Shown: piece after piece, positions 18,973 through 46,883 of the stretch
Layout of the letters: each line of letters opens with the position of its first letter
Numbering within the stretch: position 1 is the stretch's first letter
Assembly (NCBI RefSeq): GCF_900129395.1
Contig: NZ_FQVP01000004.1
Span: 124,001-188,000 of the forward strand
DNA length: 64,000 bases
Reading direction: 5' to 3'
Source: Pseudosulfitobacter pseudonitzschiae
Lineage (GTDB): Bacteria; Pseudomonadota; Alphaproteobacteria; Rhodobacterales; Rhodobacteraceae
Notes under the pieces: generated by a model
Seen by the model: the letters and a program-made list of their open reading frames with translations, nothing else
Database searches by the model: none
Told to the model about the DNA's origin: nothing
Position numbers and translations under genes: made by a program

Positions 18973-18977
18973 CCGCC

Positions 18978-20607: not shown

Positions 20608-20610
20608 CTA

Positions 20611-22400: not shown

Positions 22401-22404
22401 GACA

Positions 22405-22421
22405 GTTCTGTTACCTTGAAT
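22405..22421. promoter_or_regulatory. Possible degenerate IclR-type site before the iclR gene
   Basis: GTTC-N9-GAAT matches the GTTC-N9-GAAC pattern of the two better sites at 26590 and 26746 with one mismatch in the arms. It sits five bases before the IclR start codon. Chance occurrence is quite possible. Confidence 0.25.
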
Positions 22422-22517
22422 ATCACGCTGTGAACAGTGCATCGCGCAACAGGGTTCCGTAACGAAAAGGCGGCCACAGGACATCGCCCCGCAGCCGCCG
22501 ATCCTGTCATCTTCGGA

Positions 22518-23606: not shown

Positions 23607-23641
23607 GGTCTTCTCCTCCTCCTGTGTTGTCTTTGGGTCGT

Positions 23642-26574: not shown

Positions 26575-26589
26575 CATATCCTCCCTAGT

Positions 26590-26606
26590 GTTCCATATTA
26601 TAGAAC
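26590..26606. promoter_or_regulatory. 17-bp palindromic operator, importer side
   Basis: GTTCCATATTATAGAAC has GTTC/GAAC arms around nine bases. It lies immediately downstream of the predicted start of transcription of the importer operon. It is 12 of 17 bases identical or better to the partner site at 26746-26762, with identical arms. The location fits a repressor site. Confidence 0.6.
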
Positions 26607-26621
26607 GCTATTCCGAATACG

Positions 26622-26650
26622 ATCATTGTATCGAAAAAATCACCTGTCAA
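26622..26650 (-). promoter_or_regulatory. Sigma70-like promoter for the Pot-type importer operon
   Basis: On the minus strand a perfect TTGACA (26650-26645) is followed after 17 bp by AATGAT (26627-26622), matching four of six -10 positions. It would start transcription near 26615, about 40 bp before the ATPase gene. Confidence 0.5.
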
Positions 26651-26701
26651 TCCCCTAGCTATCCACCCCTTGCGTTGCTGCACTGCGGCAAATTTGGGCG
26701 A

Positions 26702-26731
26702 TTGACAAATTTCCCTCTGCCTGAATACCTT
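26702..26731 (+). promoter_or_regulatory. Sigma70-like promoter for the large catabolic operon
   Basis: A perfect TTGACA (26702-26707) is followed after 18 bp by TACCTT (26726-26731). The palindrome at 26746-26762 then lies just past the predicted start point, the same arrangement as on the other side of the region. Confidence 0.45.
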
Positions 26732-26745
26732 GTTGTTGAAATCTT

Positions 26746-26762
26746 GTTCCACAATACAGAAC
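26746..26762. promoter_or_regulatory. 17-bp palindromic operator, catabolic-operon side
   Basis: GTTCCACAATACAGAAC; the arms extend by two more pairs (TT on the left, AA on the right). It shares the GTTCCA start and AGAAC end with the site at 26590-26606. It lies between the predicted promoter and the CoA-transferase alpha gene, 40 bp before the start codon. Confidence 0.62.
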
Positions 26763-26801
26763 AACGACGACCGAAACGCACCAAGCAACAGGCGAACCGA
26801 A

Positions 26802-27617
26802 ATGCTAACCAATGTGGACAGTCTGGTGGACAGGCTCAGGGACGGAATGCGGATCGCCGTGCCCGTCGATTACGCCGGCGTTGCGATGGCATTTACCCGG
26901 CCCATGATCGCGCGCGGGCTGCGTGATCTTGACCTTGTCTGTGTCCCGACCGGCGGCTTACAAGTGGACCAGCTGATTGGCGCGGGCTGTGTGCGGTCGG
27001 TGGAAACCAGCGCCGTCAGCCTGGGCGAGGCCGGCGGCGCCCCCCGTTTCAACGCGGCGGTGAAAGAGGGGCGCATCCGCGTGATTGACGCCACCTGCCC
27101 CGCCGTTCACGCGGGGCTGATTGCCGCGCAGAAAGGATCGCCGTTCTTCCCGATGCGTGGGCTGATCGGCACCGACGTGCTGCGCAACCGCCCCGACTGG
27201 AAAGTGATCGACAATCCCTTTGCCGATCAGGGCGACCCGGTGGTGCTGATTCCCGCCATCAAACCCGATGTCGCCATTTTTCACGCGCCGATGGCCGACC
27301 GCGCGGGCAACGTCTGGATCGGCCGGCGGCGTGAACTGGCCCCGATGGCCTATGCCGCGACCGACACCTATGTCACCGTTGACCGTATCGTGGATGACAA
27401 CCTGCTGGCGGATGAAACCACCGCGGCGGGGGTGCTGCCCGCCTTGTACGTGTCGGGCATCGCGCATGTGCCTCAAGGGGCGTGGCCCTATGGGCTGTGG
27501 GGTGTCTATCCGGCGGACACCGATGCGCTGAAACGCTATGCCGCCGCCGCCCGCACGCAAGAGGGGTTCGACGCCTACATGGCCGCGACCGAAACCCGGA
27601 AGGAGGTGCGCGCATGA
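26802..27617 (+). CDS. CoA-transferase-fold protein, subunit A (GctA/IpdA-like)
   Basis: The 271-residue protein resembles glutaconate CoA-transferase subunit A and its relatives: VDSLVDRLRDGMRIAV, then GCVRSVETSAVSLGEAGGAPRFNAAVKEG, KVIDNPF, and DVAIFHAPMADRAGNVWIG. The C-terminus ends with a segment YAAAARTQEGFDAYMA like that of GctA. It forms an alpha/beta enzyme with the next gene (ATGA overlap at 27614-27617). The start MLTNVDSL is preferred to upstream in-frame codons that lie in the operator region. It is the first gene of a long + strand operon. Because subunit B lacks the usual catalytic Glu, the pair may be a CoA-thioester hydrolase rather than a transferase. Confidence 0.8.
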   Translation: MLTNVDSLVDRLRDGMRIAVPVDYAGVAMAFTRPMIARGLRDLDLVCVPTGGLQVDQLIGAGCVRSVETSAVSLGEAGGAPRFNAAVKEGRIRVIDATCPAVHAGLIAAQKGSPFFPMRGLIGTDVLRNRPDWKVIDNPFADQGDPVVLIPAIKPDVAIFHAPMADRAGNVWIGRRRELAPMAYAATDTYVTVDRIVDDNLLADETTAAGVLPALYVSGIAHVPQGAWPYGLWGVYPADTDALKRYAAAARTQEGFDAYMAATETRKEVRA

Positions 27618-28381
27618 TGTCCGATGCCCCCGCCCTGCCCAGCGAAACGCTGATCACCGCCATCGCCGCCCTGCTGGCCGATGTGCGTCACGTGGCGGTT
27701 GGTGCATCGTCACCGATGCCTGCCGCCGGTGCCATGCTGCGCCAGGCGCTGGACGAACAGACCCGCCACGTGCGGCTGTCGATCCTGGGGTCGGTCGCGC
27801 ACAACTTTTTCACCAACGGATCGGGCGAGCTGTTCGATTGCGCGGGTCAGGGGCGCATCGACGCCTTTTTCCTGGGCGGCGGGCAGATCGACGGGCAAGC
27901 GAACGTGAACCTTGTCGGCGCGGGCGATTATCCTCAAAGCAAGGTCCGCTGGCCCGGCTCTTTTGGGTCGGCCTATCTGTATTTCGTCGTGCCCCGCGTG
28001 ATCCTGTTCCGCGAAGAACACAGCCCGCGCGTGATGGTCGAACAGGTCGATTTCATCTCGGCCCCCGGTGTCAGCCCGCCGGATGTGTACCGGCCCGGCG
28101 GGCCCGTGGCGCTGCTGACAGGCAAGGCGTTGTTTTCCTTCGACAAGACGCGACCCGGATTCACCCTTGTCTCGGTCCATCCCGGCGAAACGCTTGAAAC
28201 CATCCGCGACGCGACCGGCTTTGACTTTGACCACCCCGATGTGGTGCCGCAAACCCCCGCGCCCGACGCTGCCACGCTTGCCTTGTTGCGCGGTCCGGTT
28301 CTGGACAAGCTGCAAGAAACCTATCCGGCCTTTGCCGAAAACTGGCGCCGTGACCTGGCCGCCCAAACGCAACATTGCTGA
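27614..28381 (+). CDS. CoA-transferase-fold protein, subunit B (GctB/IpdB-like), catalytic Glu absent
   Basis: The 255-residue protein aligns along its length with glutaconate CoA-transferase subunit B: FFLGGGQIDGQANVNLVGAGDY, then KVRWPGSFGSA, FREEHSPRVMVEQVDFISAPG and GFDFDHPDVV. In GctB the catalytic glutamate lies in a segment VESG; the corresponding strand here reads LSILGSVAHN with no acidic residue. The fold is therefore likely to do different chemistry, as in the IpdAB hydrolase group. GGAAGGAGG precedes the start. The gene is 48 bp before a CaiB-type transferase gene. Confidence 0.8.
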   Translation: MMSDAPALPSETLITAIAALLADVRHVAVGASSPMPAAGAMLRQALDEQTRHVRLSILGSVAHNFFTNGSGELFDCAGQGRIDAFFLGGGQIDGQANVNLVGAGDYPQSKVRWPGSFGSAYLYFVVPRVILFREEHSPRVMVEQVDFISAPGVSPPDVYRPGGPVALLTGKALFSFDKTRPGFTLVSVHPGETLETIRDATGFDFDHPDVVPQTPAPDAATLALLRGPVLDKLQETYPAFAENWRRDLAAQTQHC

Positions 28382-28429
28382 AACACTGGCCTGACAGGGC
28401 CGCACATTACCGATTGAACGGAGAACTGC

Positions 28430-29626
28430 ATGACGCCCACCGGCTCCCTTTCCAACCTCAAGGTCATCGACGCCAGCCGAGTCCTTGGTGGGCCCTATTG
28501 CGGCCAGATCCTGGCCGACCATGGTGCGGATGTCATCAAGCTGGAACCGCCCGCAGGCGACGAAACCCGTGGCTGGGGCCCGCCCTTTCTGGATGGGGCG
28601 GCCAGCTATTTCCAGGGTCTGAACCGCAACAAGCGCGGCATTGCGGTGGACATCTCGCAACCGGCGGGGCGCACGCTGCTGCTGGAGTTGCTGGCCGATG
28701 CCGACGTGTTTCTTGAGAATTTCAAGACCGGCACGCTGGAACGCTGGGGTCTGGGCACGGATGAGCTGCAGGCGCGGTTTCCCAAGCTGGTCCACTGCCG
28801 CGTGTCCGGCTTTGGCGCCGATGGCCCGAAAGGCGGTCTGCCCGGCTATGACGCGGCCATTCAGGCGGTCTGTGGCATCATGAGCGTGAACGGCGAACGC
28901 GGCGGCGATGCCACGCGCGTGGGCCTGCCCGTGGTCGACATGGTCACCGGCCTGAACGCGGCGCTGGGTGTGTGCATGGCGCTGAACGAACGCGCCACCA
29001 GCGGGCGTGGGCAGTTCATTGAAACGACCCTGTACGATTGCGGCGTGTCGCTGCTGCACCCGCACCTGCCCAACTATTACCTGTCCGGCAAGGTCGCAGG
29101 CACCACCGGCAACGCGCATCCCAACATCTGCCCCTATGACACCTACCAGACCAAAACCGCACCGCTGTTCCTGACCGTCGGCAACAACCGCCAGTTCGCC
29201 AAACTATGCGAAGGCATTGGCAACCCCGCGCTGGCGACCGACCCCCGCTTTGCCAGCAATGCCGACCGGCTGAACAACGCGGATGCGCTCAAGCTGGAGC
29301 TGGAAACCGCGATGGCGGCGTTCGACTGCGGCCCCCTGTCGGAAAAGCTGATCCGCATGGGCGTGCCCTGCGGTGCCGTACGGACCATCGACGAAGTGGT
29401 GGCCGACCCGCACACCACCCATCGTGAAATGATCGTGGACATCGGCGCCTATCGCGGCACCGGCAGCCCGATCAAACTGTCGCGCACGCCGGTCAGCTAT
29501 CACAGCGCACCGCCCCGCTTTGCCCAGCACACCGTCGAGGTGATGGCCGAACACGGGCTGGATCTGGAAACTTACCGCGACGTGCTGCCGGGGCTGGACC
29601 CCGTGGCCACACCCGAGAAAGCGTAG
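28430..29626 (+). CDS. CaiB/BaiF family III CoA-transferase
   Basis: The 398-residue protein has the family III layout: VIDASRVLGGPYCGQILADHGADVIKLEPPAGDETRGWGPPF, then YFQGLNRNKRGIAVDI, FLENFKTGTLERWGLG and a mid-protein GLPVVDMVTGLNAALGVCMAL. The catalytic Asp of the formyl-CoA transferase type corresponds to the D of VVDMVTG. These enzymes move CoA from a donor such as succinyl-CoA to a carboxylic acid. It should activate a carboxylate in this operon, next to an acyl-CoA synthetase gene further on. It is 9 bp before the hydroxyacid dehydrogenase gene. Confidence 0.87.
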   Translation: MTPTGSLSNLKVIDASRVLGGPYCGQILADHGADVIKLEPPAGDETRGWGPPFLDGAASYFQGLNRNKRGIAVDISQPAGRTLLLELLADADVFLENFKTGTLERWGLGTDELQARFPKLVHCRVSGFGADGPKGGLPGYDAAIQAVCGIMSVNGERGGDATRVGLPVVDMVTGLNAALGVCMALNERATSGRGQFIETTLYDCGVSLLHPHLPNYYLSGKVAGTTGNAHPNICPYDTYQTKTAPLFLTVGNNRQFAKLCEGIGNPALATDPRFASNADRLNNADALKLELETAMAAFDCGPLSEKLIRMGVPCGAVRTIDEVVADPHTTHREMIVDIGAYRGTGSPIKLSRTPVSYHSAPPRFAQHTVEVMAEHGLDLETYRDVLPGLDPVATPEKA

Positions 29627-29635
29627 GACACCCCC

Positions 29636-30694
29636 ATGACGACGCATGATACAACGCCCCTGACCATCGGCATCATCGGTGACGGGTTCATGCAGCCCGC
29701 CCTGTTCCGCACGGCGCTGGAAACGCGGCTGGGTGACCGCAAGATCACCTTCCGCGAAATGGAACTGGATTGGCCGCTGCACGTCAAATCGACCAAGGTC
29801 GATCCTGACCTGCCCGTGGGGGAATTCGTCGGCAGGCCCGAGGATTACTTTGACTTCCTGTCCGATCTGGACGTGCTGGTGACCCACCTTGCCCCGATCA
29901 CCGCGCACAGTCTGGACCATGCGCCCGCGCTGAAGCTGATCGCAGTGTCGCGCGGCGGGCCGGTGAACATCGAAATGCCGGCCGCCCGCGACCGCGGCCT
30001 GAGCGTGGTCAACACGCCGGGCCGCAACGCGTCGGCGGTGGCGGAATTCACCGTGGCCTCGTTGCTGGCGGAAACGCGCAACCTGATCCGGGGGCATCTG
30101 GCGGTGAAAAGCGGGTCGTTCAACCGCGATTACTATCACTATGACAACGCGGGGCCGGAACTGGGCGAACTGACCGTTGGCATCGTCGGCTATGGCGACA
30201 TCGGCACCCGCGTGGCGCGGCTGTTGCAACCGTTCGGCTGCCAGATCGTGATCTACGATCCGTTCAAACCGCTGACCGCCGAGGAAACCGCCGCAGGCTT
30301 TCGCAAGGCCGAGCTGGACGCGCTGCTGGCCGAGGCGGATGTGGTCACGCTGCACCCGCGCGTGACGCCCGAAACCATCGGCATGATCAGCCGCGAACGG
30401 ATCGCGGCGATGAAACCCGGCGGCTATATCGTGAACACCACGCGCGGGCAGGTTCTGGACTATGACGCGCTGTATGATGCGCTGGTGTCGGGGCATTTGC
30501 GCGGTGCGGCGCTGGACACGTTCACCCCCGAACCGCCGCCCGCCGACATGCCGTTGCTGCAACTGCCCAATGTCACCCTGTCGCCGCATATCGCCGGTGC
30601 GTCCCGTCTTTCTGCGAAAAAGGCCGCCACTGTGATCGCCGAGGACATCGCGCGGTTTCTGGCGGGCGACACGCCCCACAACCTGTGCACCTGA
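29636..30694 (+). CDS. D-2-hydroxyacid dehydrogenase family protein
   Basis: The 352-residue protein has the NAD-binding glycine motif VGIVGYGDIGTRVA (GxGxxG at 185-190) and the catalytic set of the D-2-hydroxyacid dehydrogenases: Arg in the VSRGGPVNI region, Glu in LDTFTPEPPP and His in LSPHIAGAS. The long N-terminal half suits SerA- or GhrB-like members. It should oxidize or reduce a 2-hydroxy acid. It sits with a class II aldolase and FGGY kinase, as in sugar-acid pathways. Confidence 0.85.
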   Translation: MTTHDTTPLTIGIIGDGFMQPALFRTALETRLGDRKITFREMELDWPLHVKSTKVDPDLPVGEFVGRPEDYFDFLSDLDVLVTHLAPITAHSLDHAPALKLIAVSRGGPVNIEMPAARDRGLSVVNTPGRNASAVAEFTVASLLAETRNLIRGHLAVKSGSFNRDYYHYDNAGPELGELTVGIVGYGDIGTRVARLLQPFGCQIVIYDPFKPLTAEETAAGFRKAELDALLAEADVVTLHPRVTPETIGMISRERIAAMKPGGYIVNTTRGQVLDYDALYDALVSGHLRGAALDTFTPEPPPADMPLLQLPNVTLSPHIAGASRLSAKKAATVIAEDIARFLAGDTPHNLCT

Positions 30695-30704
30695 GGATAG
30701 AGAC

Positions 30705-31382
30705 ATGACCGACCAAGAGCTGACTTTGCGGACCGAACTGATCGAAGCGTGCCGCGCGATGAACGGGCTGGGCATCAACAAGGGCACGGCGGGCAACATC
30801 AGCGTCCGCCACGGCGACGGCTTTCTGATTTCGCCCACCGGCATTCCCTATGACAAACTGCGCCCCGAACATGTGGTGGCGATGAACTGGGACGCCTCGT
30901 TTACGGGCGACGTGCTGCCGTCCAGCGAATGGCGGTTTCACCGCGACATCCTGCAAGCGCGCCCCGAACTGAACGCCGTGGTGCACACCCATTCGACCAA
31001 GGCGACCAGCGTGTCAGTACTGGGCCGTGACATCCCGGCCATCCACTATTCGATTGCGGCCGCCGGCGGGGACAGCATCCGCTGCGCCCCCTATGAATTG
31101 TTCGGCACGCAGGAACTGGCCCACGCAGTCGTCAAGGCGCTGGAGGGCCGCCGCGCCTGTCTGATGGCGCATCACGGCGTGATCGCGGCACATGTGTCCA
31201 TTGCCCGCGCGCTGGCGCTGGCCGTGACCGTCGAAGAACTGGCGACGCAATTGCTGGCCCTGCTGCCCATGGGCGAACCGCCGGTTCTGTCCGAAGCGCA
31301 AATCGCGGTGGTGCTGGAGAAATTCAAGACCTACGGCCAGCAGACGCCCACAGTTCAAGAAGGTCTGCGACATGCGTCGTAA
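30705..31382 (+). CDS. Class II aldolase/adducin family protein
   Basis: The 225-residue protein matches the FucA/AraD class II aldolase-epimerase family: GLGINKGTAGNISVRHGDGFLISPTGIPYDKL (phosphate-binding loop), SSEWRFHRDIL (catalytic Glu region), VVHTHSTKATS (two zinc His) and MAHHGVIA (third His). Members cleave sugar-1-phosphates to dihydroxyacetone phosphate and an aldehyde, or decarboxylate oxo-acid phosphates. The following kinase could supply the phosphorylated substrate. It is 10 bp after the dehydrogenase gene. Confidence 0.87.
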   Translation: MTDQELTLRTELIEACRAMNGLGINKGTAGNISVRHGDGFLISPTGIPYDKLRPEHVVAMNWDASFTGDVLPSSEWRFHRDILQARPELNAVVHTHSTKATSVSVLGRDIPAIHYSIAAAGGDSIRCAPYELFGTQELAHAVVKALEGRRACLMAHHGVIAAHVSIARALALAVTVEELATQLLALLPMGEPPVLSEAQIAVVLEKFKTYGQQTPTVQEGLRHAS

Positions 31383-31394
31383 CGCGTTGCCCTT

Positions 31395-32894
31395 GTGATC
31401 CTGTGCCTGGACAGCGGCACGACGGCGGTCAAGGCCGCCGCCTTTGATGCCTCGGGGCAGCTGCTGGCGCATGTGGATTTGCCCAATACGGCACTAAGAC
31501 GCACGGGCCTGCGGGTTGAACAGGACATGGATGCCTCGCGCGAACTGGCGGTACGCGCGCTGCGCGACTGCATGACGCGCGCGGACGGTCATACACCGCG
31601 CGGGCTGATCCTGACGGGACAGGGTGACGGGCTGTGGCCGGTGGATGCCGACGGTCAGCCGGTCGGGCCTGCGATGACATGGCTGGACGGTCGGGCGCGG
31701 GGGCTGGTCAGCGAACTGGGCGAAGCACTGGACCGGATCGAGGACATCACCGGGTCGCGCCCCACCGCCGCCGCACAAAGCCTGCAATTGCTTTGGCTGC
31801 AACGCCACGATCCCGACCGTGTGCAGCGGATCGCAAAAATCCTGCGGCTGAAAGACTGGTTGTTCTACACCCTTACCGGCACCCTGTTGGCCGAGCCGAG
31901 CGCCGCCTTGCCGGTCTGGGGCAACTGGCGCGAGGGCCGGATGTCGGCAGAGATCGGGCAGGCGCTGGGCCTGACCCGTGGCATCGACATTCTGCCCGAA
32001 TTCGCGCCCGTGGGCCAGTGCCGCGCGCCATTGTCTGCCTCCGCAGCGCAGGCTTGCGGCCTGCCCGCCGGCCTGCCGGTGCTGATGGGGCCGGGCGATG
32101 TGCAGGCGACGCTGATCGGTCTGGGGCTTGGCACCCGTCCCGAGGTCACGCGGGCGTCGGTGTTTGGCACCAGTGCAATTCATGGCTGCCTGCTGGATGA
32201 TCCCGACACGATGCCGCAAAAGCCCCGCGGGGCGATGGTGCAGCAGTTCGTGCTGGGCGACGGGTTCCTGTGCTTTCACCCCTGCTTTAACGGGGCCACC
32301 CTGTTGCAGCACCTGCACGGACAGTTCCGCGATCTGCCATCGCCCGTGCCGCCCGCCTATTCGGGGTTGGTGATGCATCCCTTTTTCGAGCCGGGCGGCG
32401 AACGTGCGCCCTGGACCGACCCACAGGCCAGCGCCGCCCTGTTCGGGCTGAGTGCCGCCACCACACCGCACCAAATTGCATGGGCCGGACGCGAGGCGCT
32501 GGCCTTTGTCGCGCGCACCAGCCACACGATGATGGGTGCCGCCCAAGGCGCATTGTCGCTGGGTGGCGGGCTGGCGCGGGATGCGGATTTCGCGCGGTTT
32601 CTGGCGACCTGCCTTGGCACGCCGGTGGTGCGCAGCCCCACGGCGCACGCGGGCCCGCGCGGGCTGGCCGCGATTGCGGCAACACATCTTTTGGGTGCTT
32701 CCCCTGCCGATATCGCGGCCCAATGGATCGGCCCGCCCGAAGACAGCATTCCCCCCCAAACCGGTCCGGTCGCGCGCTATGCGAATGCAAAATTTGCATC
32801 CTTCCGCGATCTGGTCGACACAGCATCACCCCATTGGGCGGCATTGTCCGGCATCGCGGACGCCGCTGCACATCTGAACGAGGACACACTATGA
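31395..32894 (+). CDS. FGGY-family carbohydrate kinase
   Basis: The 499-residue protein has the FGGY two-domain fold: LCLDSGTTAVKAAAFD at the N-terminus (phosphate loop), LILTGQGDGLWPVD and TWLDGRA in the first domain, and ASVFGTSAIHG and GALSLGGGLARDADFARFLA in the second. Members phosphorylate pentoses, glycerol, ribulose, xylulose or 4-carbon sugars. The start is a GTG at 31395 with a poor ribosome site. The stop overlaps the next start by 4 bp. Its substrate is probably cleaved or decarboxylated by the class II aldolase next to it. Confidence 0.85.
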   Translation: MILCLDSGTTAVKAAAFDASGQLLAHVDLPNTALRRTGLRVEQDMDASRELAVRALRDCMTRADGHTPRGLILTGQGDGLWPVDADGQPVGPAMTWLDGRARGLVSELGEALDRIEDITGSRPTAAAQSLQLLWLQRHDPDRVQRIAKILRLKDWLFYTLTGTLLAEPSAALPVWGNWREGRMSAEIGQALGLTRGIDILPEFAPVGQCRAPLSASAAQACGLPAGLPVLMGPGDVQATLIGLGLGTRPEVTRASVFGTSAIHGCLLDDPDTMPQKPRGAMVQQFVLGDGFLCFHPCFNGATLLQHLHGQFRDLPSPVPPAYSGLVMHPFFEPGGERAPWTDPQASAALFGLSAATTPHQIAWAGREALAFVARTSHTMMGAAQGALSLGGGLARDADFARFLATCLGTPVVRSPTAHAGPRGLAAIAATHLLGASPADIAAQWIGPPEDSIPPQTGPVARYANAKFASFRDLVDTASPHWAALSGIADAAAHLNEDTL

Positions 32895-34444
32895 AAATCG
32901 GCGCCGACCTGCTTTGCGATACCCTGCTGGCCAACGGAATCGACACCTGCTTTGCGAATCCGGGCACCTCTGAAATGCACTTTGTCGCGGCACTGGACCG
33001 CCAGCCTGCGATGCGCTGCGTGCTGGGGCTGTTCGAGGGTGTGGTCACGGGGGCCGCCGACGGATACGCCCGTATGGCCGAAAAGCCCGCCGCGACCCTG
33101 CTGCACCTGGGGCCGGGGCTGGCGAACGGGCTGGCCAACCTGCACAACGCGCGCCGTGCCGGCAGTCCGATGGTCAACGTCGTCGGCGATCACGCGACCT
33201 ATCATCTGGCGCTTGACGCGCCGCTGACCTCGGATATCGAAAGCCTGGCGCGGCCGATGTCGCATTGGGTCGGACGCGCGGACAGCCCCGAAACGCTTGG
33301 CTCTACAGCAGAAGAGGCGATTTCAGCCGCCTGCACCGCACCGGGGCAGATTGCCACGCTGATCCTGCCCGCCGATGCCTCGTGGGGGGCCGCTCCGGCT
33401 GGCGATCCCGTGGCCATCACGCCGCCGCAGCCCACGGCACCGGATGCCGCGCGCATCACACAGGCCGCCGCCGCCCTGCGCAACGGGCGCACCACCACGA
33501 TCCTGATCTCGGGCAAGGCCCTGCGCGATGCCGAACTGGACACGCTGGACCGCATCGCCCAAAGCAGCGGCGCGCGGCTGATGGCGCAGCAATCGAACGG
33601 TCGCATGATGCGCGGCGCGGGGCGCGTTGCCCTTGATCGGGTGCCTTACAAGGTCGATCAGGCCCTTGCGACCTTTGCCGACACCGAACAGGTGATCCTG
33701 ATCGGGGCAAAGGCGCCGGTCGGCTTTTTTGCCTACCCCGGAAAGCCGGGCAAGATGCTGCCCGAAAGCTGCGAGGTGATCGACATGGCCGATGCGGGCA
33801 GCGATCTGCCAGCGGCCATTGCCGCGCTTGCGGATGAATTCGGCGTGGCAAACAGCCCCGCCGCGCGCCTTGCGTCCCGCGCCAAGCCCGACATGCCCAG
33901 CGGCACGCTGACGCCGGATGCCATCGCCGTCGCACTGGCGCACCACATGCCCGACAATGCCATTGTTTGCGACGAATCCGTGACCTCGGGCCGCGACTTT
34001 TTCCGCCACACCTATGGCGCGGCCCCGCATGATTTCCTGCAACTGACCGGTGGGGCCATCGGTGTCGGCATGCCGCTGGCCACCGGTGCCGCCGTCGCCT
34101 GCCCGGACCGCAAGGTGATCACGTTGCAAGCGGACGGATCCGGCATGTACACGGTTCAGGCGCTGTGGACGCAGGCGCGCGAAGAACTGGATGTGGTCAC
34201 CATCGTCTTTGCCAACCGCCGCTACCAGATCCTGCACGGCGAGCTGAAAGACGTGGGCGCAGGCACCGCCGGGCGCAACGCCAGCCGGATGCTGGACCTA
34301 GACAACCCTGCGCTGGACTGGGTCAGCCTTGCGCGCGGCATGGGAGTCGAGGCCGCCAGCGCCAGCACCGTCGAAGAATTCAGCGACTTGCTGCGCGCGG
34401 CCTGCCAGCGCCGTGGTCCGTTCCTGATCGAAGCCTTGATATGA
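32891..34444 (+). CDS. Thiamine-diphosphate enzyme, acetolactate synthase/benzoylformate decarboxylase group
   Basis: The 517-residue protein has the three-domain POX-like fold: FANPGTSEMHFVAALD then VLGLFEGVVTGAADGYARM (the Glu that activates TPP), and in the C-terminal domain LQADGSGMYTVQALWTQAREELDVVTIVFANRRYQI, the TPP-binding motif with ADG in place of GDG. The latter form and the length fit the MdlC-like 'acetolactate synthase large subunit' proteins rather than true IlvB. A 2-oxo acid decarboxylase or C-C ligase is expected. It overlaps the kinase and is followed directly by the molybdoenzyme gene. Confidence 0.83.
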   Translation: MKIGADLLCDTLLANGIDTCFANPGTSEMHFVAALDRQPAMRCVLGLFEGVVTGAADGYARMAEKPAATLLHLGPGLANGLANLHNARRAGSPMVNVVGDHATYHLALDAPLTSDIESLARPMSHWVGRADSPETLGSTAEEAISAACTAPGQIATLILPADASWGAAPAGDPVAITPPQPTAPDAARITQAAAALRNGRTTTILISGKALRDAELDTLDRIAQSSGARLMAQQSNGRMMRGAGRVALDRVPYKVDQALATFADTEQVILIGAKAPVGFFAYPGKPGKMLPESCEVIDMADAGSDLPAAIAALADEFGVANSPAARLASRAKPDMPSGTLTPDAIAVALAHHMPDNAIVCDESVTSGRDFFRHTYGAAPHDFLQLTGGAIGVGMPLATGAAVACPDRKVITLQADGSGMYTVQALWTQAREELDVVTIVFANRRYQILHGELKDVGAGTAGRNASRMLDLDNPALDWVSLARGMGVEAASASTVEEFSDLLRAACQRRGPFLIEALI

Positions 34445-34458
34445 AAGGGCCTGCCGCC

Positions 34459-36765
34459 ATGTCCAACGTCCGCCGCATACCGCATTGCAGCCATTGGGGC
34501 GCCTATACGATCCTTGTCGATGACAACCGGATCGTGGGGGTCGAGCCGTTTGGCCCCGACCCTGCCCCGTCGCCGATCATCCATTCGGTGGCCGAATGGA
34601 CCAAAAGCGACCGGCGTGTTTTGCAGCCCATGGTGCGGCAGGGTTGGCTGGAGAACCGCGGCGCAAGTGACGGGCGCAAGCGCGGATCGGACCGGTTCGT
34701 GCCGGTCAGCTGGGACGAGGCGACAACGCTGGTATCGGACGAGATTTCGCGCGTGGCGCGCGACCATGGCAACGCGTCGATCTTTGCCGGTTCTTACGGC
34801 TGGACTAGTTGCGGGCGTTTTCACCATGCCTCGACCCTGCTCAAGCGGATGTTGAATCTGGTGGGCGGCTATACCGGCCACGTCGACACCTATTCGATTG
34901 CCGCAGGCCCGGTGATTTTGCGGCACACGCTGGGCGACGAGCGCGCCTGTGGCGGCGGAGCCAACACGCTGGACAACATTGCCGAACATACCGAAACGCT
35001 GGTCGTGTTCGGCGCAATGTCTCCGCGCACCTCGCAAAGCGAGGCGGGGGGGATCGGCACGCACCAGTTGGAAACCCACCTGCGCCGGATCGCTGAACGC
35101 GGGGTCAGGGTCGTGCTGGTGTCGCCCCTGCGCGACGACCTGCCCGACTGGCTGAATGCCGAATGGATGCCGATCCGGCCCAACACCGACGCCGCGCTGA
35201 TGCTGGGGCTGGCCGGTGAAATCGTCGCCGCCGGACGCCACGCCCGTGATTTTCTGGACCGCTGCACCAGTGGCGCGGACACGCTGCTGTCGTATCTGAC
35301 AGGGGCCGACGACGGTGTTGTCAAAGACGCCGACTGGGCCGCCGAAATCACCGGGCTGGATGCCACGGCAATCCGCGCCCTGTCCGCGCAGCTGGTCGAC
35401 AGCCGCAGTATGCTGACCGTCAGTTGGAGCCTGCAACGCGCACACCATGGCGAGCAACCTTTCTGGGCCGCGCTGGGGCTGGCCGCGATGATCGGCCAGA
35501 TCGGCCTGCCCGGTGGCGGCGTCGGCTATGGCTATGGGTCGCTTGGCGGGGTCGGTGCGCCGATCCAGACCGGCAAATCCCCTGCGATGAGCAAGGGCAT
35601 GGATGCGATCCGCAGCTTTATCCCCGTGGCGCGGGTCACCGACATGCTGCTGAACCCCGGTACGCCGTTCACCTATCAGGGCGAGACCCGCACTTACCCC
35701 GATGCGCGGCTGGTCTATTGGGCGGGCGGCAACCCGTTCCACCACCATCAGGACCTGAACCGGCTGAGCGAGGCGTGGACCCGTCCCGAAACCATCATCG
35801 TGCAGGACCCTATGATGACGGCCACCGCCCGGCGCGCCGACATCATCCTGCCTGCCTCGACCTCGCTCGAGCGGAACGACCTGGCTGGAAACCGTCGGTC
35901 GGACTATATCCTTGCCATGCACCAAGCCGTTGATCCGATGGGTCAGGCGCTGTCGGATTTCGAGATTTTCTGCCGCATTTCGGAAAAGCTGGGCGTCAGG
36001 GCCGCCTTTGACGAAGGTCGCGACGAAATGGGGTGGGTGCGGCACCTGTATGACCTCAGCCGGACCGATGTGCGCGAGCGGCTGGACTTTGACATGCCCG
36101 ACTTTGACACGTTCTGGGAGCAAGGTTTCGCCGCCTGCCCGATTCAGCACAACCACACCTATCTGGCCAATTTTCGCGCCAATCCGCAGGCCGCGCCGCT
36201 GGCCACGGAAAGCGGCAGGATCGTATTGGGCAGCGCCGCGCTGGCGCAGCTTGGCTATGACGATTGCCGCGCACATCCCGCGTGGATTCCGCCCGCCGAA
36301 TGGCTGGGGGCCGCTGGTGCAACCGACGCGCTGCACCTGCTGTCCCACCAACCCAAGGGGCGACTGCACAGCCAGCTGGAAACCGGCCCATCCAGCCGCG
36401 AGGAAAAACGCAACGGTCGCGAACAGGTGCGCATGAACCCCGATGACGCCGCCGCGCGCAACATCGCCGACGGGCAGACCGTGCGCCTGTGGAACGATCG
36501 CGGTGCCTGCCTTGCCACCGCCAGGCTGACCGCCGACCAGCGCCCCGGCGTCGCCGTGTTACCCACTGGCGCATGGCTGACCGAACAGGCAGATGGGCCG
36601 GAATTGGCCGGCAATCCCAACGTGCTGACAATGGATGTCGGCACCTCGCAATTCGGGCAGGGCTGTTCCGCACAGACCTGTCTGGTTCGGATCGCGCCGC
36701 ATGACGACAATCCGGGCGATGCCATCGAAATCTATCAGGCGCAACTGACTGCGCTTTTGACCTAA
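34459..36765 (+). CDS. Molybdopterin-dependent oxidoreductase, BisC/TorA type
   Basis: The 768-residue protein belongs to the DMSO reductase family and looks like biotin sulfoxide reductase. GSYGWTSCGRFHHAS carries the Ser of the S-liganded Mo type. It also has GGGVGYGYGSLGGVG, NPFHHHQDLNRLSEAWTRPETIIVQDPMMTATARRADIILPAST, and the C-terminal cofactor domain HQPKGRLHSQLET. There is no N-terminal iron-sulfur motif and no Tat signal, so the enzyme should act in the cytoplasm. AAGGG precedes the ATG at 34459; an ATG at 34441 would overlap the previous stop. No cytochrome or subunit B gene accompanies it. Confidence 0.85.
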   Translation: MSNVRRIPHCSHWGAYTILVDDNRIVGVEPFGPDPAPSPIIHSVAEWTKSDRRVLQPMVRQGWLENRGASDGRKRGSDRFVPVSWDEATTLVSDEISRVARDHGNASIFAGSYGWTSCGRFHHASTLLKRMLNLVGGYTGHVDTYSIAAGPVILRHTLGDERACGGGANTLDNIAEHTETLVVFGAMSPRTSQSEAGGIGTHQLETHLRRIAERGVRVVLVSPLRDDLPDWLNAEWMPIRPNTDAALMLGLAGEIVAAGRHARDFLDRCTSGADTLLSYLTGADDGVVKDADWAAEITGLDATAIRALSAQLVDSRSMLTVSWSLQRAHHGEQPFWAALGLAAMIGQIGLPGGGVGYGYGSLGGVGAPIQTGKSPAMSKGMDAIRSFIPVARVTDMLLNPGTPFTYQGETRTYPDARLVYWAGGNPFHHHQDLNRLSEAWTRPETIIVQDPMMTATARRADIILPASTSLERNDLAGNRRSDYILAMHQAVDPMGQALSDFEIFCRISEKLGVRAAFDEGRDEMGWVRHLYDLSRTDVRERLDFDMPDFDTFWEQGFAACPIQHNHTYLANFRANPQAAPLATESGRIVLGSAALAQLGYDDCRAHPAWIPPAEWLGAAGATDALHLLSHQPKGRLHSQLETGPSSREEKRNGREQVRMNPDDAAARNIADGQTVRLWNDRGACLATARLTADQRPGVAVLPTGAWLTEQADGPELAGNPNVLTMDVGTSQFGQGCSAQTCLVRIAPHDDNPGDAIEIYQAQLTALLT

Positions 36766-36777
36766 GGAAGGACTTTC

Positions 36778-37347
36778 ATGACCAACACATCCATCAGCCG
36801 CTTTCCGGTGCCCGAGATCAAGGACCTGCCCGAGGATCTGCGCGACCGCATTCTGGCGGTTCAGGAGAAATCGGGATTCGTGCCGAACGTCTTTCTGACG
36901 CTGGCCCACAGACCGGAAGAATTCCGCGCCTTTTTTGCCTATCACGACGCCCTGATGGACAAGCCCGGTGACATCACCAAGGCCGAGCGTGAAATGATCG
37001 TCGTCGCCACCTCGAACGCCAACCAGTGCCAGTATTGCGTGGTCGCCCACGGCGCGATTTTGCGCATCCGCGCCAAGGACCCGCAGATTGCCGATCAGGT
37101 GGCGATCAACTACCGCAAGGCGGACATCACCCCGCGCCAGCGCGCAATGCTGGATTTCGCCATGAAGGTTTCGGCCCGCGCCTACGAGGTTGACGAAAGC
37201 GATGTGGAAACGCTGAAATCGCACGGGTTCAGCGAGGAAGACATCTGGGACATTGGCGCGATCACCGCGTTTTTCGGCATGTCCAACCGGCTGGCCAACC
37301 TGACCAGCATGAAACCCAACGCTGAATTCTACAACATGGGGCGCTAG
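36778..37347 (+). CDS. Carboxymuconolactone decarboxylase/AhpD-like peroxidase-related protein
   Basis: The 189-residue protein has the AhpD-like helical domain with the redox pair CQYC (about residues 80-83) followed by VVAHGAILRI, and PNVFLTLAHRPEEFRAFF at the N-terminal part, as in 'peroxidase-related' proteins. The CxxC-His layout can reduce peroxides with a thiol partner. It sits between a molybdoenzyme and a rhodanese, and 3 bp before the latter. A role in redox or thiol chemistry of the operon is suggested. Confidence 0.83.
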   Translation: MTNTSISRFPVPEIKDLPEDLRDRILAVQEKSGFVPNVFLTLAHRPEEFRAFFAYHDALMDKPGDITKAEREMIVVATSNANQCQYCVVAHGAILRIRAKDPQIADQVAINYRKADITPRQRAMLDFAMKVSARAYEVDESDVETLKSHGFSEEDIWDIGAITAFFGMSNRLANLTSMKPNAEFYNMGR

Positions 37348-37350
37348 GAC

Positions 37351-37746
37351 ATGGCCATTGGATACCAACAAATGCTGGACGAAGCCGACGCCAAAGTGAC
37401 CTCGGTCGACGCTGCGGATATGGCCGCGCAACTGGGCGCGGAGGATATCGTGATGGTCGACATCCGTGATCCCCGTGAACTGGAACGCGAAGGCATGATC
37501 CCCGACGCCTTTCACGCCCCGCGCGGGATGCTGGAATTCTGGATCGATCCGGCCAGCCCCTATCACAAGCCGCGCTTTGCCGAGGGCAAAACCTATGTCT
37601 TCTATTGCGCCTCGGGCTGGCGGTCGCTGCTGGCCGCAAAAGTGGCGCAGGAAATGGGTCTGGACGCCCGCAGCCTGCGCGGCGGCTTCAGCGGCTGGAA
37701 AGCCGACGGCCACCCCGTTGGCGAACTGCAAAAGCGGGCGCGTTGA
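37351..37746 (+). CDS. Rhodanese-like sulfurtransferase
   Basis: The 131-residue single-domain rhodanese has IVMVDIRDPRELEREGMIPDAFHAPRG (the usual start of the fold) and the catalytic loop FYCASGWRS, with Cys at about residue 91. It transfers sulfane sulfur to a thiophilic acceptor. Its place beside the AhpD-like and acyl-CoA synthetase genes may mean sulfur transfer or detoxification in this pathway. The stop codon shares a base with the next possible ATG at 37746. Confidence 0.85.
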   Translation: MAIGYQQMLDEADAKVTSVDAADMAAQLGAEDIVMVDIRDPRELEREGMIPDAFHAPRGMLEFWIDPASPYHKPRFAEGKTYVFYCASGWRSLLAAKVAQEMGLDARSLRGGFSGWKADGHPVGELQKRAR

Positions 37747-37772
37747 TGCACACAGACCAGGGATCTCCGCGC

Positions 37773-39440
37773 ATGAGCATCTATGACACCGATCTGGACC
37801 GTTGTCCGGCCAACCATCAACCGATGTCGCCCCTGTCCTATCTGGAACGGGCGGCGCTGACCTATCCCGAGCGTGTGGCGGTGATCCACGGGCCGGACCG
37901 GATCAGCTATCGCCAGCTTTGGGAAAATTGCCTGAGGCTCGGTTCGGGCCTTGTCGGGCTGGGGATTGGCCACGGCGACACGGTTTCTGTGCTGTTGTCG
38001 AACACCCCGCCGATGATCGAGGCGCACTATGGCGTCGCGATGGCCGATGGCGCGGTTCTGCATTCGCTGAACTACCGTCTGGACGCACGCGCCATCGCCT
38101 TTCAACTGGACCACGCAGAATCCAAGGTTCTGATCGTCGACCGCGAGTTTTCGGATCTGGCCGCAGAAGCGCTGAGCCTGATGACATCCTCCGCGCTGCC
38201 CATCGTGATCGACTATGACGATCCGGCCTACCCCGACGATGCCCCCTATCCCAAAGGGCCGCTGATCGGGGTCATGGAGTATGCGGCGCTGCTGGCATCG
38301 GGGTCGGCTGACTATGTGGCACCGCCCCTGCGCGACGAATGGAACGCGATTTCCCTGAATTACACCTCTGGCACCACCGGCAACCCCAAAGGGGTCGTCT
38401 GCCACCACCGCGGTGCGGCGCTGATGGCGATGAACATGGTGATCCACGGCGAAATGGGGCGGCACCCTGTCTACCTGTGGACGCTGCCGCTGTTCCATTG
38501 CAACGGCTGGAGCTTTTCGTGGAGTGTCGCGGTTCAGGCGGGCACCCATGTCTGCCTGCGCTGGGTCCGCGCCAAACCGATCTATGACCTGATTGCAAAC
38601 CACGGCGTCACCCATCTGTGCGGCGCGCCAATTGTCATGACGACACTGCTGAACGCCGCCGATGCCGACAAGACGCCCTTTGCGCATACGGCAACCTTTA
38701 TCACCGCTGCCGCACCGCCCCCTGCCGCCGTGCTGGAGGCGATGAAAGCTGCCGGGTTCGAGATGCAGCATATGTACGGGCTGACCGAAACCTATGGCCC
38801 CGTGGTCATGAACGCTTGGCAGGACAGCTGGGACGACCTGCCGCTGGCGGATCAGGCTGCCTACAAGGCGCGTCAGGGCGTTCGTTTCCTGTCGCTGTCC
38901 CAGGCCGATGTACTCGACCCCAAAACGCTTGAGCCTGTCCCGCGCGATGGCGAAACGCTGGGCGAGGTGATGCTGCGCGGCAATGTCGTGATGAAGGGAT
39001 ACCTGAAAAACCCCGCCGCCACGTCCGAGGCCTTTGCCGGCGGCTGGTTTCACACCGGCGATCTGGGTGTGATGCATCCCGACGGGTATATCCAGCTCAA
39101 GGACCGGTCCAAGGACATCATCATCTCGGGCGGCGAAAACATCTCGTCTATCGAGGTTGAGGACGCGATCTTTGCCCATCCGGCTGTTGCCTTGTGTGCG
39201 GTCGTGGCCATGCCTGACGCCAAATGGGGCGAACGGCCTGTGGCCTTTGTCGAACTGCGCGGGGGACAGGTGATCCAGGAAAGTGACCTGATCGACCATT
39301 GCCGCGCGACCCTTGCGCATTTCAAATGCCCCGCAAGGATCGTGTTTGACGAACTGCCCAAGACGTCGACCGGCAAGGTGCAAAAGTTTGTCCTGCGCGA
39401 ACGGGCCAAGCTGTTGGCAGAGCAGGCGTTGGCCGGCTAA
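37773..39440 (+). CDS. AMP-dependent acyl-CoA synthetase
   Basis: The 555-residue protein has all adenylate-forming motifs: LNYTSGTTGNPKGVV (P-loop), MYGLTETYGP, TGDLGVMHPDGYIQLKDRSKDIIISGGENISSIEVE and the C-terminal lysine in KTSTGKVQKF. It resembles medium/long-chain and aryl-acid synthetases such as FadD3 or 'acyl-CoA synthetase' of this size. It should activate a carboxylic acid to its CoA thioester. The start is MSIYDTDL; an in-frame ATG at 37746 would add nine residues. It precedes the FAD oxidase by 26 bp. Confidence 0.9.
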   Translation: MSIYDTDLDRCPANHQPMSPLSYLERAALTYPERVAVIHGPDRISYRQLWENCLRLGSGLVGLGIGHGDTVSVLLSNTPPMIEAHYGVAMADGAVLHSLNYRLDARAIAFQLDHAESKVLIVDREFSDLAAEALSLMTSSALPIVIDYDDPAYPDDAPYPKGPLIGVMEYAALLASGSADYVAPPLRDEWNAISLNYTSGTTGNPKGVVCHHRGAALMAMNMVIHGEMGRHPVYLWTLPLFHCNGWSFSWSVAVQAGTHVCLRWVRAKPIYDLIANHGVTHLCGAPIVMTTLLNAADADKTPFAHTATFITAAAPPPAAVLEAMKAAGFEMQHMYGLTETYGPVVMNAWQDSWDDLPLADQAAYKARQGVRFLSLSQADVLDPKTLEPVPRDGETLGEVMLRGNVVMKGYLKNPAATSEAFAGGWFHTGDLGVMHPDGYIQLKDRSKDIIISGGENISSIEVEDAIFAHPAVALCAVVAMPDAKWGERPVAFVELRGGQVIQESDLIDHCRATLAHFKCPARIVFDELPKTSTGKVQKFVLRERAKLLAEQALAG

Positions 39441-39466
39441 GCGCGCCTTTGCAAAAGGAGACACCG

Positions 39467-40864
39467 ATGCAAGACACCCCCGCGCTGCCCGATGTCGGCC
39501 TTGTGGACCGTCTGGCATCGGCCCTGCCCCCCGAAGCCTTGCTGACAGGCGACGCCATTGGCCCGCGCTATCAGGAGGACCGGCGCGACCGGTTTTCCGC
39601 CCGCCCGCAGTTTGTCCTGCGCCCTGCCGACACCGCCCAGACCGCAACCGCGCTGGCGCTGTGTCATGACGCGGGGCAGCCGCTGGTGATCCAGGGCGGA
39701 CGCACGGGGCTGTCCGGTGCACACCGCATTGCCGAGGGCGAGGCGGTTCTGTCGCTGGAACGGATGACCGATGTCGGCCCCGTGGACATGGACAGCGCCA
39801 CCGTGCTGGCGGGGGCCGGCGCGCCGTTGCAGACGGTGCAGGTTGCGGCGCAGGACGCCGGTCTGTTCTTTGGCGTCGACATCGGTTCGCGCGGGACCGC
39901 GACCATCGGCGGAAACATCGCCACCAACGCGGGCGGCATCCGCGTGCTGCGCTATGGCATGTTCCGCGCGCAGGTTGCCGGGCTGGAAACCGTGCTGGCC
40001 GACGGCACGGTGCTGTCATCGCTGCGCGGTCTGGCCAAGGACAACACCGGCTATGACCTGAACCAGCTTTTCATCGGCGCAGAGGGCACGCTGGGCGTCG
40101 TCACCCGCGCATTGCTTCACCTGCACCCCCGCCCCCAGACAGAGTTGAACGCGTTGCTGGCCCTGCCGTCACTGCCTGCGGCCCTGGCGCTGCTTCAGCG
40201 CGCGCGTCAGGGGCTGGGCGACGTGTTGTCGGCCTTCGAGGTGATGTGGAAAGACACATATTTTGGCATCTGCGCCCACCAGAACCGCCAACCCCCGCTG
40301 GGCACGACCGCGCCGTTCTATGTGCTGATCGAATGCCAGTCCGCCGACGCAGGCCCCGCCGTGGCCGACCGGTTCACCCAGATCCTGATGCAGGCGCTGG
40401 AGGACGATCTGGCGCTGGATGCCATCGTGAGCCAATCGAACCGTGAATTCGACACCCTGTGGGACATCCGCGATGGTGCTGCCGATTTCGTGCGCGGGCT
40501 TGATGGTGTGGCCAGTGGCGATATCAGCATTCCGCTGAACCGGATCGAGGCTTTTGCCCAGGCCAGCCAGACCGCGCTGCGCCAGATTGACCCAGATGCC
40601 GGATTTTACATGTTCGGCCATCTGGGCGACGGCAACCTGCATTATGTTTTCACCACGAATGACAGAACTGCCGCGCTAGAAAAACTCTATACTCTGACCG
40701 CCGAACATGGCGGATCAATCTCGGCCGAACACGGGATCGGCGTAGACAAGAAACCGTGGCTGAGCCTGTCGCGCAGCCCGCAAGAGCTGGCTGTCATGCG
40801 ACAGATGAAGCGCACCCTTGACCCCAGGACGATCCTGAATCGCGGGCGTCTGTTCGATTTGTAA
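39467..40864 (+). CDS. FAD-linked hydroxyacid oxidase (GlcD/D-lactate or D-2-hydroxyglutarate dehydrogenase type)
   Basis: The 465-residue protein has the PCMH FAD domain (GGRTGLSGAHRIAEGEAVLSLERM, then ATIGGNIATNAGGIRVLRYG) and a FAD_oxidase_C domain with FGHLGDGNLHY and EHGIGVDKKPWL, the His-rich active-site and metal segments of D-lactate and D-2-hydroxyglutarate dehydrogenases. A strong AAAGGAG precedes the start. It is the last gene of this section; a gap of 101 bp follows, so the transporter genes downstream may have their own promoter. Confidence 0.88.
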   Translation: MQDTPALPDVGLVDRLASALPPEALLTGDAIGPRYQEDRRDRFSARPQFVLRPADTAQTATALALCHDAGQPLVIQGGRTGLSGAHRIAEGEAVLSLERMTDVGPVDMDSATVLAGAGAPLQTVQVAAQDAGLFFGVDIGSRGTATIGGNIATNAGGIRVLRYGMFRAQVAGLETVLADGTVLSSLRGLAKDNTGYDLNQLFIGAEGTLGVVTRALLHLHPRPQTELNALLALPSLPAALALLQRARQGLGDVLSAFEVMWKDTYFGICAHQNRQPPLGTTAPFYVLIECQSADAGPAVADRFTQILMQALEDDLALDAIVSQSNREFDTLWDIRDGAADFVRGLDGVASGDISIPLNRIEAFAQASQTALRQIDPDAGFYMFGHLGDGNLHYVFTTNDRTAALEKLYTLTAEHGGSISAEHGIGVDKKPWLSLSRSPQELAVMRQMKRTLDPRTILNRGRLFDL

Positions 40865-40965
40865 GATGGGCCGTCCCCACGCTGCCGATCGCGTTTCGCA
40901 GCGTTGCGTTATTTGTGTGCGGTCAGTGCTAGACCCTGCCGCGATCCGGGCATAACGTGCGCGCG

Positions 40966-45770: not shown

Positions 45771-45794
45771 GGCGTATTCACAGGGAGGAATGAC

Positions 45795-46882: not shown

Positions 46883-46883
46883 C

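Follow-up and report, generated by a model that had tools for sequence, protein, structure and literature searches.

A divergently arranged gene cluster of Pseudosulfitobacter pseudonitzschiae with a dedicated importer, a BisC-type molybdoenzyme and sugar-type enzymes

Can enzymes of sugar-acid, coenzyme A (CoA) and molybdenum chemistry, packed into one run of genes, belong to a single pathway, and what would that pathway degrade? The question is raised by a stretch of 64,000 nucleotides (nt) of Pseudosulfitobacter pseudonitzschiae (contig NZ_FQVP01000004.1, positions 124,001–188,000; hereafter the window), in which a first-pass annotation saw one composite catabolic operon. Almost certainly the genes serve one dedicated pathway, because their order and their linkage to an importer and a regulator are conserved and palindromes are present in 27 of 27 divergent regions. 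Its substrate may tentatively be described as a sugar-acid-like compound bearing an S- (or N-) oxide. The first-pass annotation knew of no described pathway with this set, and no description of the cluster was found in the open-licence literature, where absence is no proof that none exists; as far as that literature was searched, it is an undescribed combination of known enzyme families.

Extent and conservation of the gene unit

All 12 genes named at first pass are found on the plus strand at 26802–40864, each family name being backed by open reading frame, Pfam and NCBIfam scans. They are tightly packed as claimed, with gaps between successive genes of −1, 48, 9, 10, 12, −4, −4, 12, 3, −4 and 8 nt. 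Divergently from the first of them, ctA, four minus-strand genes encode an ATP-binding cassette (ABC) ATPase, a fused permease, a solute-binding protein and an IclR regulator; their starts were set by homology to the annotation of the related locus L012. The true unit is a divergon of some fourteen genes at 21645–37746, which includes the IclR gene, the importer and the genes from ctA through rhodanese. It is larger on the left than the first-pass unit, whose boundary at 26802 missed the importer, the regulator and the operator-like palindromes, and it is softer on the right: the core of the 12-gene membership holds, and the acyl-CoA synthetase and the flavin adenine dinucleotide (FAD) oxidase are optional members, not constant ones. 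The features are as follows.

21645–22400, minus strand: IclR-family regulator; best NCBIfam match BhcR, 176.5 bits, below the cut-off of 350
22518–23606, minus strand: ABC solute-binding protein, SBP_bac_8 type; nearest solved chain 3rpw
23642–25435, minus strand: ABC permease with two permease halves fused, as judged from length and sequence
25432–26574, minus strand: ABC ATPase, start by homology to L012
26590–26606, no strand: palindrome GTTCCATATTATAGAAC, putative IclR operator on the ATPase side, from a pattern scan
26746–26762, no strand: palindrome GTTCCACAATACAGAAC, putative IclR operator on the ctA side, from a pattern scan
26802–27617, plus strand: ctA, alpha subunit of GctA/AibA/IpdA fold (PF01144, PDB match)
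27617–28381, plus strand: ctB, beta subunit of GctB/AibB/IpdB fold without the catalytic Glu (PF01144, PDB match)
28430–29626, plus strand: CaiB, class III CoA transferase; nearest to the succinate-glutarate CoA-transferase model, 320 bits, cut-off 750
29636–30694, plus strand: D-2-hydroxyacid dehydrogenase (2HADH), by Pfam/NCBIfam
30705–31382, plus strand: class II (Zn) aldolase of L-fuculose-1-phosphate aldolase type, by Pfam/NCBIfam and residues
31395–32894, plus strand: divergent FGGY kinase; xylulokinase model 152 bits, cut-off 380
32891–34444, plus strand: thiamine pyrophosphate (TPP) enzyme of the PRK07586 family, benzoylformate-decarboxylase-like; 770 bits, cut-off 363
34441–36765, plus strand: BisC-type molybdoenzyme, no signal peptide evident by eye; Tyr114, Trp116 and Ser147 of dimethyl sulfoxide (DMSO) reductase kept
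36778–37347, plus strand: AhpD-like 'peroxidase-related' protein with CxxC...H, by family scan and residues
37351–37746, plus strand: single-domain rhodanese with a CASGWR loop; 2 of the 14 Rhodobacterales-type copies are without it
37743–39440 (start maybe 37773 by homology to L012), plus strand: optional acyl-CoA synthetase of the PRK08162 family, missing from 3 of the 14 copies
39449–40864, plus strand: FAD-linked GlcD-type oxidase, optional; directly beside the synthetase gene only in the window, L005 and L012

The comparison table comprises 31 loci, 14 of which, including the window, are Rhodobacterales-type copies. All 14 carry the genes for ctA, ctB, CaiB, 2HADH, aldolase, FGGY kinase, TPP enzyme, BisC and AhpD in this order, with 61–99% protein identity to the window, which bears out the first-pass view of one composite catabolic unit; the copies are not independent, since L005 and L012 share 92–99% identity with the window across those proteins that were compared, and BisC and the kinase are 93–98% identical within the near-duplicate pairs L006/L007, L013/L018 and L015/L019. 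All four transport and regulator genes are present in 13 copies, and the L009 contig ends inside the permease gene. The rhodanese is encoded in 12 of the 14 copies and the acyl-CoA synthetase in 11; FAD oxidase homologues of 60–68% lie farther away in six other copies, L013 has one of 42%, and none is seen in L009 (contig end), L014 or L015.

The ATPase–ctA intergenic regions were scanned for GTTC-(3–12)-GAAC, the counts having no shuffle control of their own. All of the first 20 regions contain 17-bp palindromes, 17 of them two, and so do 7 of 7 further regions (two in four) from f171, another alphaproteobacterial family, giving 27 of 27 in sum, with two in 21. The fitted pattern GTTCYRNRNTNYRGAAC, written from the palindromes found, fits 36 of the 37 first sites. 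With one mismatch allowed, it matches just the two sites in the window, where 0.29 matches are expected by chance; in the whole genome of 4.95 Mb it finds two palindromic sites, both of them here, and one one-strand match, against one match for the reversed control. The local IclR protein probably binds these palindromes, which are putative operators. Read from the sequence, the unit thus combines a tightly packed gene run and operator-like palindromes with an IclR-type regulator encoded on the spot and a dedicated ABC importer.

The cassette is rare and portable. Genome searches scored part of the first-look candidates per genome, so that the following counts are lower bounds: the kinase is found in 3 of 195 relatives at E ≤ 1e-60, the binding protein in 6 of 349 phylum-sample genomes, own genome included, and in 1 of 289 class-sample genomes (the window's own), and the BisC subfamily, for which at most two candidates were scored per genome, in 4 of 385 genomes of the class sample (E ≤ 1e-250; the window's own is among the 4). 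One genome scan with the kinase gave seven loci, two of them with distant kinases of 27–31%. Among plasmids, the kinase finds 11 records at 61–92% identity, the remainder being below 60%, and the binding protein is matched at E ≤ 1e-60 in the same 11. Seven of these plasmid regions, all on named plasmids, were inspected, and all seven have the same layout and the nine-gene set. Named carriers include Paracoccus denitrificans PD1222, Cereibacter sphaeroides KD131 and Sagittula. An iron/NtrYX proteome study of P. denitrificans names Pden_4850, annotated there as a monosaccharide ABC ATPase, which may or may not be a neighbour of the cassette.

Scans for promoters and terminators gave no excess over shuffled sequence (1 promoter-like site against a mean of 2.1, and 6 terminator-like sites against 10.5), so the operon limits rest on gene spacing and conservation. 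No RNA families or tRNAs were found in the window. The FAD oxidase gene is followed after 92 nt by oppB, an oligopeptide-type permease gene; genes past 40957 are not assigned to the cassette because L012 carries unrelated genes there. Positions 40957–49245 hold oligopeptide-type ABC permeases and an ATPase, with no binding-protein gene seen, as well as genes for an aldehyde dehydrogenase, a short-chain dehydrogenase/reductase (SDR), a cupin, an S58 peptidase and a TPR protein. On the other flank, at 15399–21411, lie an NMT1-type ABC importer, an FAD oxidase and a creatininase-family hydrolase, with no link to the cassette in the named relatives inspected.

A second version and partial sets

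A search with the binding protein finds the same importer in at least 13 of 198 f171 genomes, and all 13 copies found have the IclR, binding protein, permease and ATPase genes. In 12 of them the enzymes are ctA, ctB, BisC, AhpD, aldolase, a PfkB kinase and an SDR, the last two assigned from one representative each; none of these 12 stretches, as examined, encodes CaiB, the TPP enzyme, rhodanese or acyl-CoA synthetase. The 13th copy, in G900, is of the FGGY/2HADH/TPP form, with no CaiB or AhpD in the stretch examined, and G691 has an extra FAD oxidase (64%) beside IclR. Compared with the window, the 12 copies have 65–78% identity in binding protein, permease and ATPase, 69–76% in ctAB, 71–74% in BisC, 83–85% in AhpD and 51–53% in the aldolase. 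The kinase, the dehydrogenase and the aldolase lineage are thus exchangeable around a constant importer, ctAB, BisC and AhpD. That non-homologous proteins take the place of the kinase and the dehydrogenase, yet the type of aldolase is retained, argues that the pathway requires phosphorylation and class II aldol cleavage and that these are no mere passengers.

The break-up of the set in relatives, which the first-pass annotation named as counter-evidence, is not seen in the 14 Rhodobacterales-type copies and is partly seen outside them, in f171 and in the subsets of L034, L035, L040 and L100. A still smaller set, ctA-ctB-BisC-AhpD-AcuI, is present in G277 (L040). In Sulfitobacter THAF37 (L034), ctA-ctB-CaiB are found close to BisC-AhpD, and a tripartite ATP-independent periplasmic (TRAP) importer accompanies them. 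Pseudorhodobacter turbinis (L100:6992–18110) has IclR, ctA-ctB-CaiB and the aldolase, which speaks against full unity of the set; no FGGY, 2HADH or BisC gene was detected in 28.7 kb, and the genes kept are joined only by part of a TPP gene.

Several further observations concern these partial loci. The cassette in Sulfitobacter THAF37 looks scattered: a shortened FGGY gene (46%; L017:9983–11101) adjoins an IS6 on one plasmid, and the L034 genes lie within about 15 kb of an IS6 on another. L100 has a second, complete TPP gene (61%), divergently placed. On a betaproteobacterial plasmid (L035:9129–20318), ctA-ctB-CaiB lie near genes for 3-sulfinopropanoyl-CoA desulfinase, CaiB and cysteine dioxygenase. 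At L039:9001–11289, a BisC gene (67%) that belongs to the cassette subfamily and carries one in-frame stop stands beside IclR and malate synthase genes; the plasmid table lists no gene there.

Enzymes, predicted pathway and alternatives

BisC, present in 30 of the 31 loci, matches DMSO reductase 1eu1 over its full length (633 bits) and scores 979 bits with TIGR00509, slightly under the cut-off of 1017.55. BisC/DMSO-reductase type S/N-oxide reductases are marked by the molybdenum ligand Ser147 together with Tyr114 and Trp116. By alignment to 1eu1, from which the numbering is taken, all three positions are kept in 29 of 29 BisC proteins tested (that of G985, with 79% coverage, was left out). The enzyme has the residues of an S/N-oxide reductase and is predicted to have reductase activity; the first-pass guess that the substrate carries an S- or N-oxide group fits these residues. 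The CxxC...H of AhpD is conserved in 28 of 28 and the Cys loop of rhodanese in 12 of 12.

Looser BisC relatives (47–49%) were inspected in six plasmid regions, 3 of which place the gene in organosulfur or kinase/aldolase operons. These neighbourhoods favour an S-oxide, without proof.

The three operons are of different types. At L076:5839–14362 the BisC relative (48%) occurs in an operon of methylthioadenosine (MTA) type, with a nucleoside ABC importer, purine-nucleoside phosphorylase, MtnA, transketolase halves and a RuBisCO-like protein (MtnW model 164.5 bits, cut-off 409); this operon possibly salvages oxidised methylthioadenosine. On an Agrobacterium plasmid (L099:1343–14026) the relative lies in an S-methyl-thiourocanate (S-methylergothioneine-type) operon, whose S-methyl-thiourocanate hydratase scores 975.8 bits (cut-off 880). 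A second BisC/kinase/aldolase operon, at L097:4952–12505, combines BisC with an FGGY kinase, a medium-chain (MDR) dehydrogenase and a class II aldolase/epimerase; its transketolase halves are 83–89% identical to those of L076.

The ctA and ctB proteins both belong to PF01144 and match chains A and B of 1poi, so that the two-subunit CoA_trans fold is present; matches to the GctAB, AibAB and IpdAB structures are weak (about 28–90 bits in PDB). At the aligned, hydrophobic position of Glu54-beta, Glu is found in 0 of 30 ctB proteins, and none of the 30 has Cys at the Cys56-beta position; the register of both is uncertain because the profile aligns the active segment of AibB as an insertion. The ctB region expected to hold the catalytic Glu is shorter, and many ctB relatives have a Glu a few residues on, where the window has Ala. 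In AibAB the beta subunit presumably has Cys56-beta in place of Glu. IpdAB of RHA1 likewise is without the Glu in its beta subunit (Gly57), and IpdAB did not transfer CoA (PMC5380842). Since ctB is without the Glu, like the beta subunit of an enzyme that did not transfer CoA, ctAB is not called a CoA transferase; the 'CoA-transferase-fold pair' of the first-pass annotation is supported as to its fold and not supported as to transferase activity. Within the class, ctB proteins are widespread: 85 of 385 genomes have a match at E ≤ 1e-10, and in 70 of these the match is strong, at 51% or more. The neighbours of the wider ctAB family in 20 genomes, in two of which a few were scanned for families, point to no single common pathway; a CaiB relative of 52–58% stands beside it in 10 of the 20.

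CaiB itself matches Pfam CoA_transf_3 (394.6 bits), and its catalytic Asp is present in all 16 proteins, 15 of them recognised by a pattern and the other (L035) by eye. Genes for AcuI-type acrylyl-CoA reductases adjoin 6 of the 14 Rhodobacterales-type copies and 3 of the 12 f171 copies, representatives from the two versions being 54% identical, and in L040 one directly follows ctA-ctB-BisC-AhpD. Three were scanned with NF051456 (cut-off 440): L083 lies above it (511.8), and L088 (427.6) and L040 (429.1) lie below.

Among the sugar-type enzymes, all 27 aldolases tested keep Glu73, His92, His94 and His155 (FucA numbering), the positions that bind zinc or take part in catalysis in FucA; the window's aldolase scores below the fucA equivalog cut-off (246.7 against 400.25 bits). 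The FGGY kinase is far from FucK (TIGR02628 50 bits, cut-off 470.9). Arg and His are conserved in 15 of 15 2HADH proteins; the Glu pattern is found in 14 of them, and L016 has a variant of it. As a parallel only, an 'acetolactate synthase' was more abundant on thiodipropionate and its deletion left growth unchanged (PMC6370202).

The nearest solved chain to the binding protein is 3rpw (623 bits; ligand not given), presumably from Rhodopseudomonas, followed by 4i1d; further solved relatives are named for mannopine, a γ-aminobutyric acid (GABA) sensor, polyamine and agropine. The importer is predicted to be of polyamine/opine type. The R. palustris COG0687 binder RPA4648, which may or may not be the 3rpw protein, bound p-coumaric acid (PMC3223731); no conclusion here draws on it.

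A pathway with these parts would act on one specific small polar, carboxylated and polyhydroxylated compound carrying an oxidised S (or N) group, brought in by the importer. Cytoplasmic BisC would reduce the S/N-oxide, with AhpD (a dithiol protein) and rhodanese as redox or sulfur helpers. The sugar-like part would be phosphorylated by the kinase (FGGY here, PfkB in f171) and split by the FucA-type aldolase into dihydroxyacetone phosphate (DHAP) and an aldehyde; 2HADH and the TPP enzyme could convert a D-2-hydroxyacid through a 2-keto acid to an aldehyde and CO2. CaiB would put CoA on a carboxylate fragment, and ctAB, acting like AibAB or IpdAB rather than as a transferase, might then decarboxylate or hydrolyse the thioester or cleave a C–C bond in it. 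In copies with a linked AcuI gene, propionyl-CoA could be formed from an acryloyl-type CoA.

That the cassette takes up a sugar-acid-like compound bearing an S- (or N-) oxide and degrades it to DHAP, an aldehyde and an acyl-CoA is a tentative reading of these gene assignments, somewhat short of even chances. A little less probable again is its stronger form, in which the nutrient is a sulfoxide-bearing sugar-acid-like metabolite, sulfoxide reduction by BisC is an obligate catabolic step, the Glu-less GctAB-fold pair performs a new CoA-thioester reaction, and two families use non-homologous kinases and dehydrogenases with the same importer and reductase. Several points weigh against this interpretation. 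We know of no compound that needs all the steps. BisC-type enzymes take N-oxides too, so that sulfur is not proven, and what AhpD and rhodanese do here is guesswork. In the stretches examined, no AcuI gene adjoins the cassette of the window or 7 other Rhodobacterales-type copies. The CoA branch may be peripheral, since the PfkB-form f171 stretches lack CaiB and acyl-CoA synthetase along with the TPP enzyme and rhodanese. Some subsets have no sugar genes (L034, L040), and in L100 neither FGGY nor BisC was detected. Among the BisC relatives, no clear sulfur link is seen in L095 (xanthine dehydrogenase neighbours) or L098, metC and a sulfurtransferase are near that of L096 on the opposite strand only, and the neighbours of L089 (62%) and L090 (52%) reveal no clear pathway or sulfur link.

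Specific candidates were also considered and not adopted: the sulfoxides of methylthioribose (MTR) and MTA, dimethylsulfoxonium propionate (DMSOP), the methionine hydroxy-analogue, 3-nitropropionate, opines and Amadori compounds, inositol-like cyclitols, and biotin sulfoxide. To our knowledge, none of them uses the whole set.

Plain sugar-acid catabolism, in which a D-2-hydroxyacid passes through a 2-keto acid to an aldehyde, kinase and aldolase lead to DHAP, and BisC, AhpD and rhodanese repair or protect off the main path, is unlikely. It gains from Sinorhizobium pSymB (L021), where a kinase/2HADH/FucA trio accompanies an ABC importer for sugars and the stretch seen contains no BisC gene. Yet BisC, AhpD and ctAB are the most constant enzymes, AhpD missing only from G900 in the stretch examined; they stay when the kinase, dehydrogenase, CaiB and TPP enzyme change, and they occur without the sugar genes in L040 and L034.

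Unlikely to the same degree is a nitrogen substrate, such as an N-oxide, a hydroxylamine or an opine- or Amadori-like sugar–amino acid conjugate, in place of an organosulfur compound. The solved relatives of the binding protein beyond 3rpw and 4i1d point towards it, as does the breadth of BisC-type enzymes; against this, no aminotransferase, deaminase or amidase is found among the cassette genes scanned, and some looser BisC relatives stand in organosulfur operons.

A pathway of DMSOP or dimethylsulfoniopropionate (DMSP) type is improbable. CaiB and ctAB would there release DMSO and acryloyl-CoA, BisC would reduce DMSO and AcuI would form propionyl-CoA, in keeping with the Tyr114 of BisC, the recurrence of AcuI and the marine origin of several hosts; known DMSP lyases that were tested also cleave DMSOP (PMC10686828). 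The kinase, aldolase, dehydrogenases and TPP enzyme would be left unused, however, no Ddd-type lyase is among the listed Pfam/NCBIfam hits of the cassette (the rest of the genome was not searched), and the hosts include soil Paracoccus. That two or more unrelated operons adjoin by chance is highly improbable and already contradicted for 21645–37746: despite the variable right end (acyl-CoA synthetase, FAD oxidase and Opp genes) and subsets standing alone in L034, L035 and L040, gene order is conserved over large distances and the palindromes are conserved in the divergent region.

Significance and comparison with known systems

A regulator, importer and reductase that stay constant across families while kinase and dehydrogenase are swapped point to one real nutrient whose degradation was not found described. 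The named carriers are cultivated strains, which makes the question directly testable. If BisC performs an obligate step, the tasks of molybdenum S/N-oxide reductases would extend from repair and respiration to the catabolism of carbon and sulfur compounds, and there would be a first clue to the function of the Glu-less ctAB family, which has strong ctB matches in 70 of 385 class-sample genomes.

With the AibAB decarboxylase and the IpdAB ring-opening hydrolase, ctAB shares the two-subunit fold and the absence of the Glu of class I CoA transferases; it differs in its distant sequence and in the shorter segment where AibB holds its Cys. BisC resembles the DMSO reductase/TorA family in its full-length match to 1eu1 and its Tyr114, Trp116 and Ser147; unlike that family, it falls below the TIGR00509 cut-off, has no evident signal peptide and lies in a catabolic gene run beside AhpD.

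The L-fucose pathway runs through FucI, FucK and FucA. The cassette has in common with it an FGGY kinase and a FucA-type aldolase with the zinc and catalytic residues, but the set contains no isomerase or lactaldehyde reductase. The DHAP shunt of 5-deoxyribose salvage employs a kinase, an isomerase and a class II aldolase and handles methylthio- and deoxy-pentoses (PMC6079011, PMC10986504). Phosphorylation followed by aldol cleavage to DHAP and an aldehyde is common to both systems; in the cassette, the kinase is of FGGY or PfkB type, BisC, CoA and TPP steps are added, and no MtnA/DrdI-type sugar-phosphate isomerase is found among the genes scanned. The trio of Sinorhizobium pSymB belongs to the same three families as the cassette enzymes (2HADH 50%, aldolase 48% and kinase 32% identical) and differs in its sugar-type ABC importer, in its LuxR-, sugar-binding- and DeoR-type regulators and in having no BisC, CoA or TPP genes in the stretch seen.

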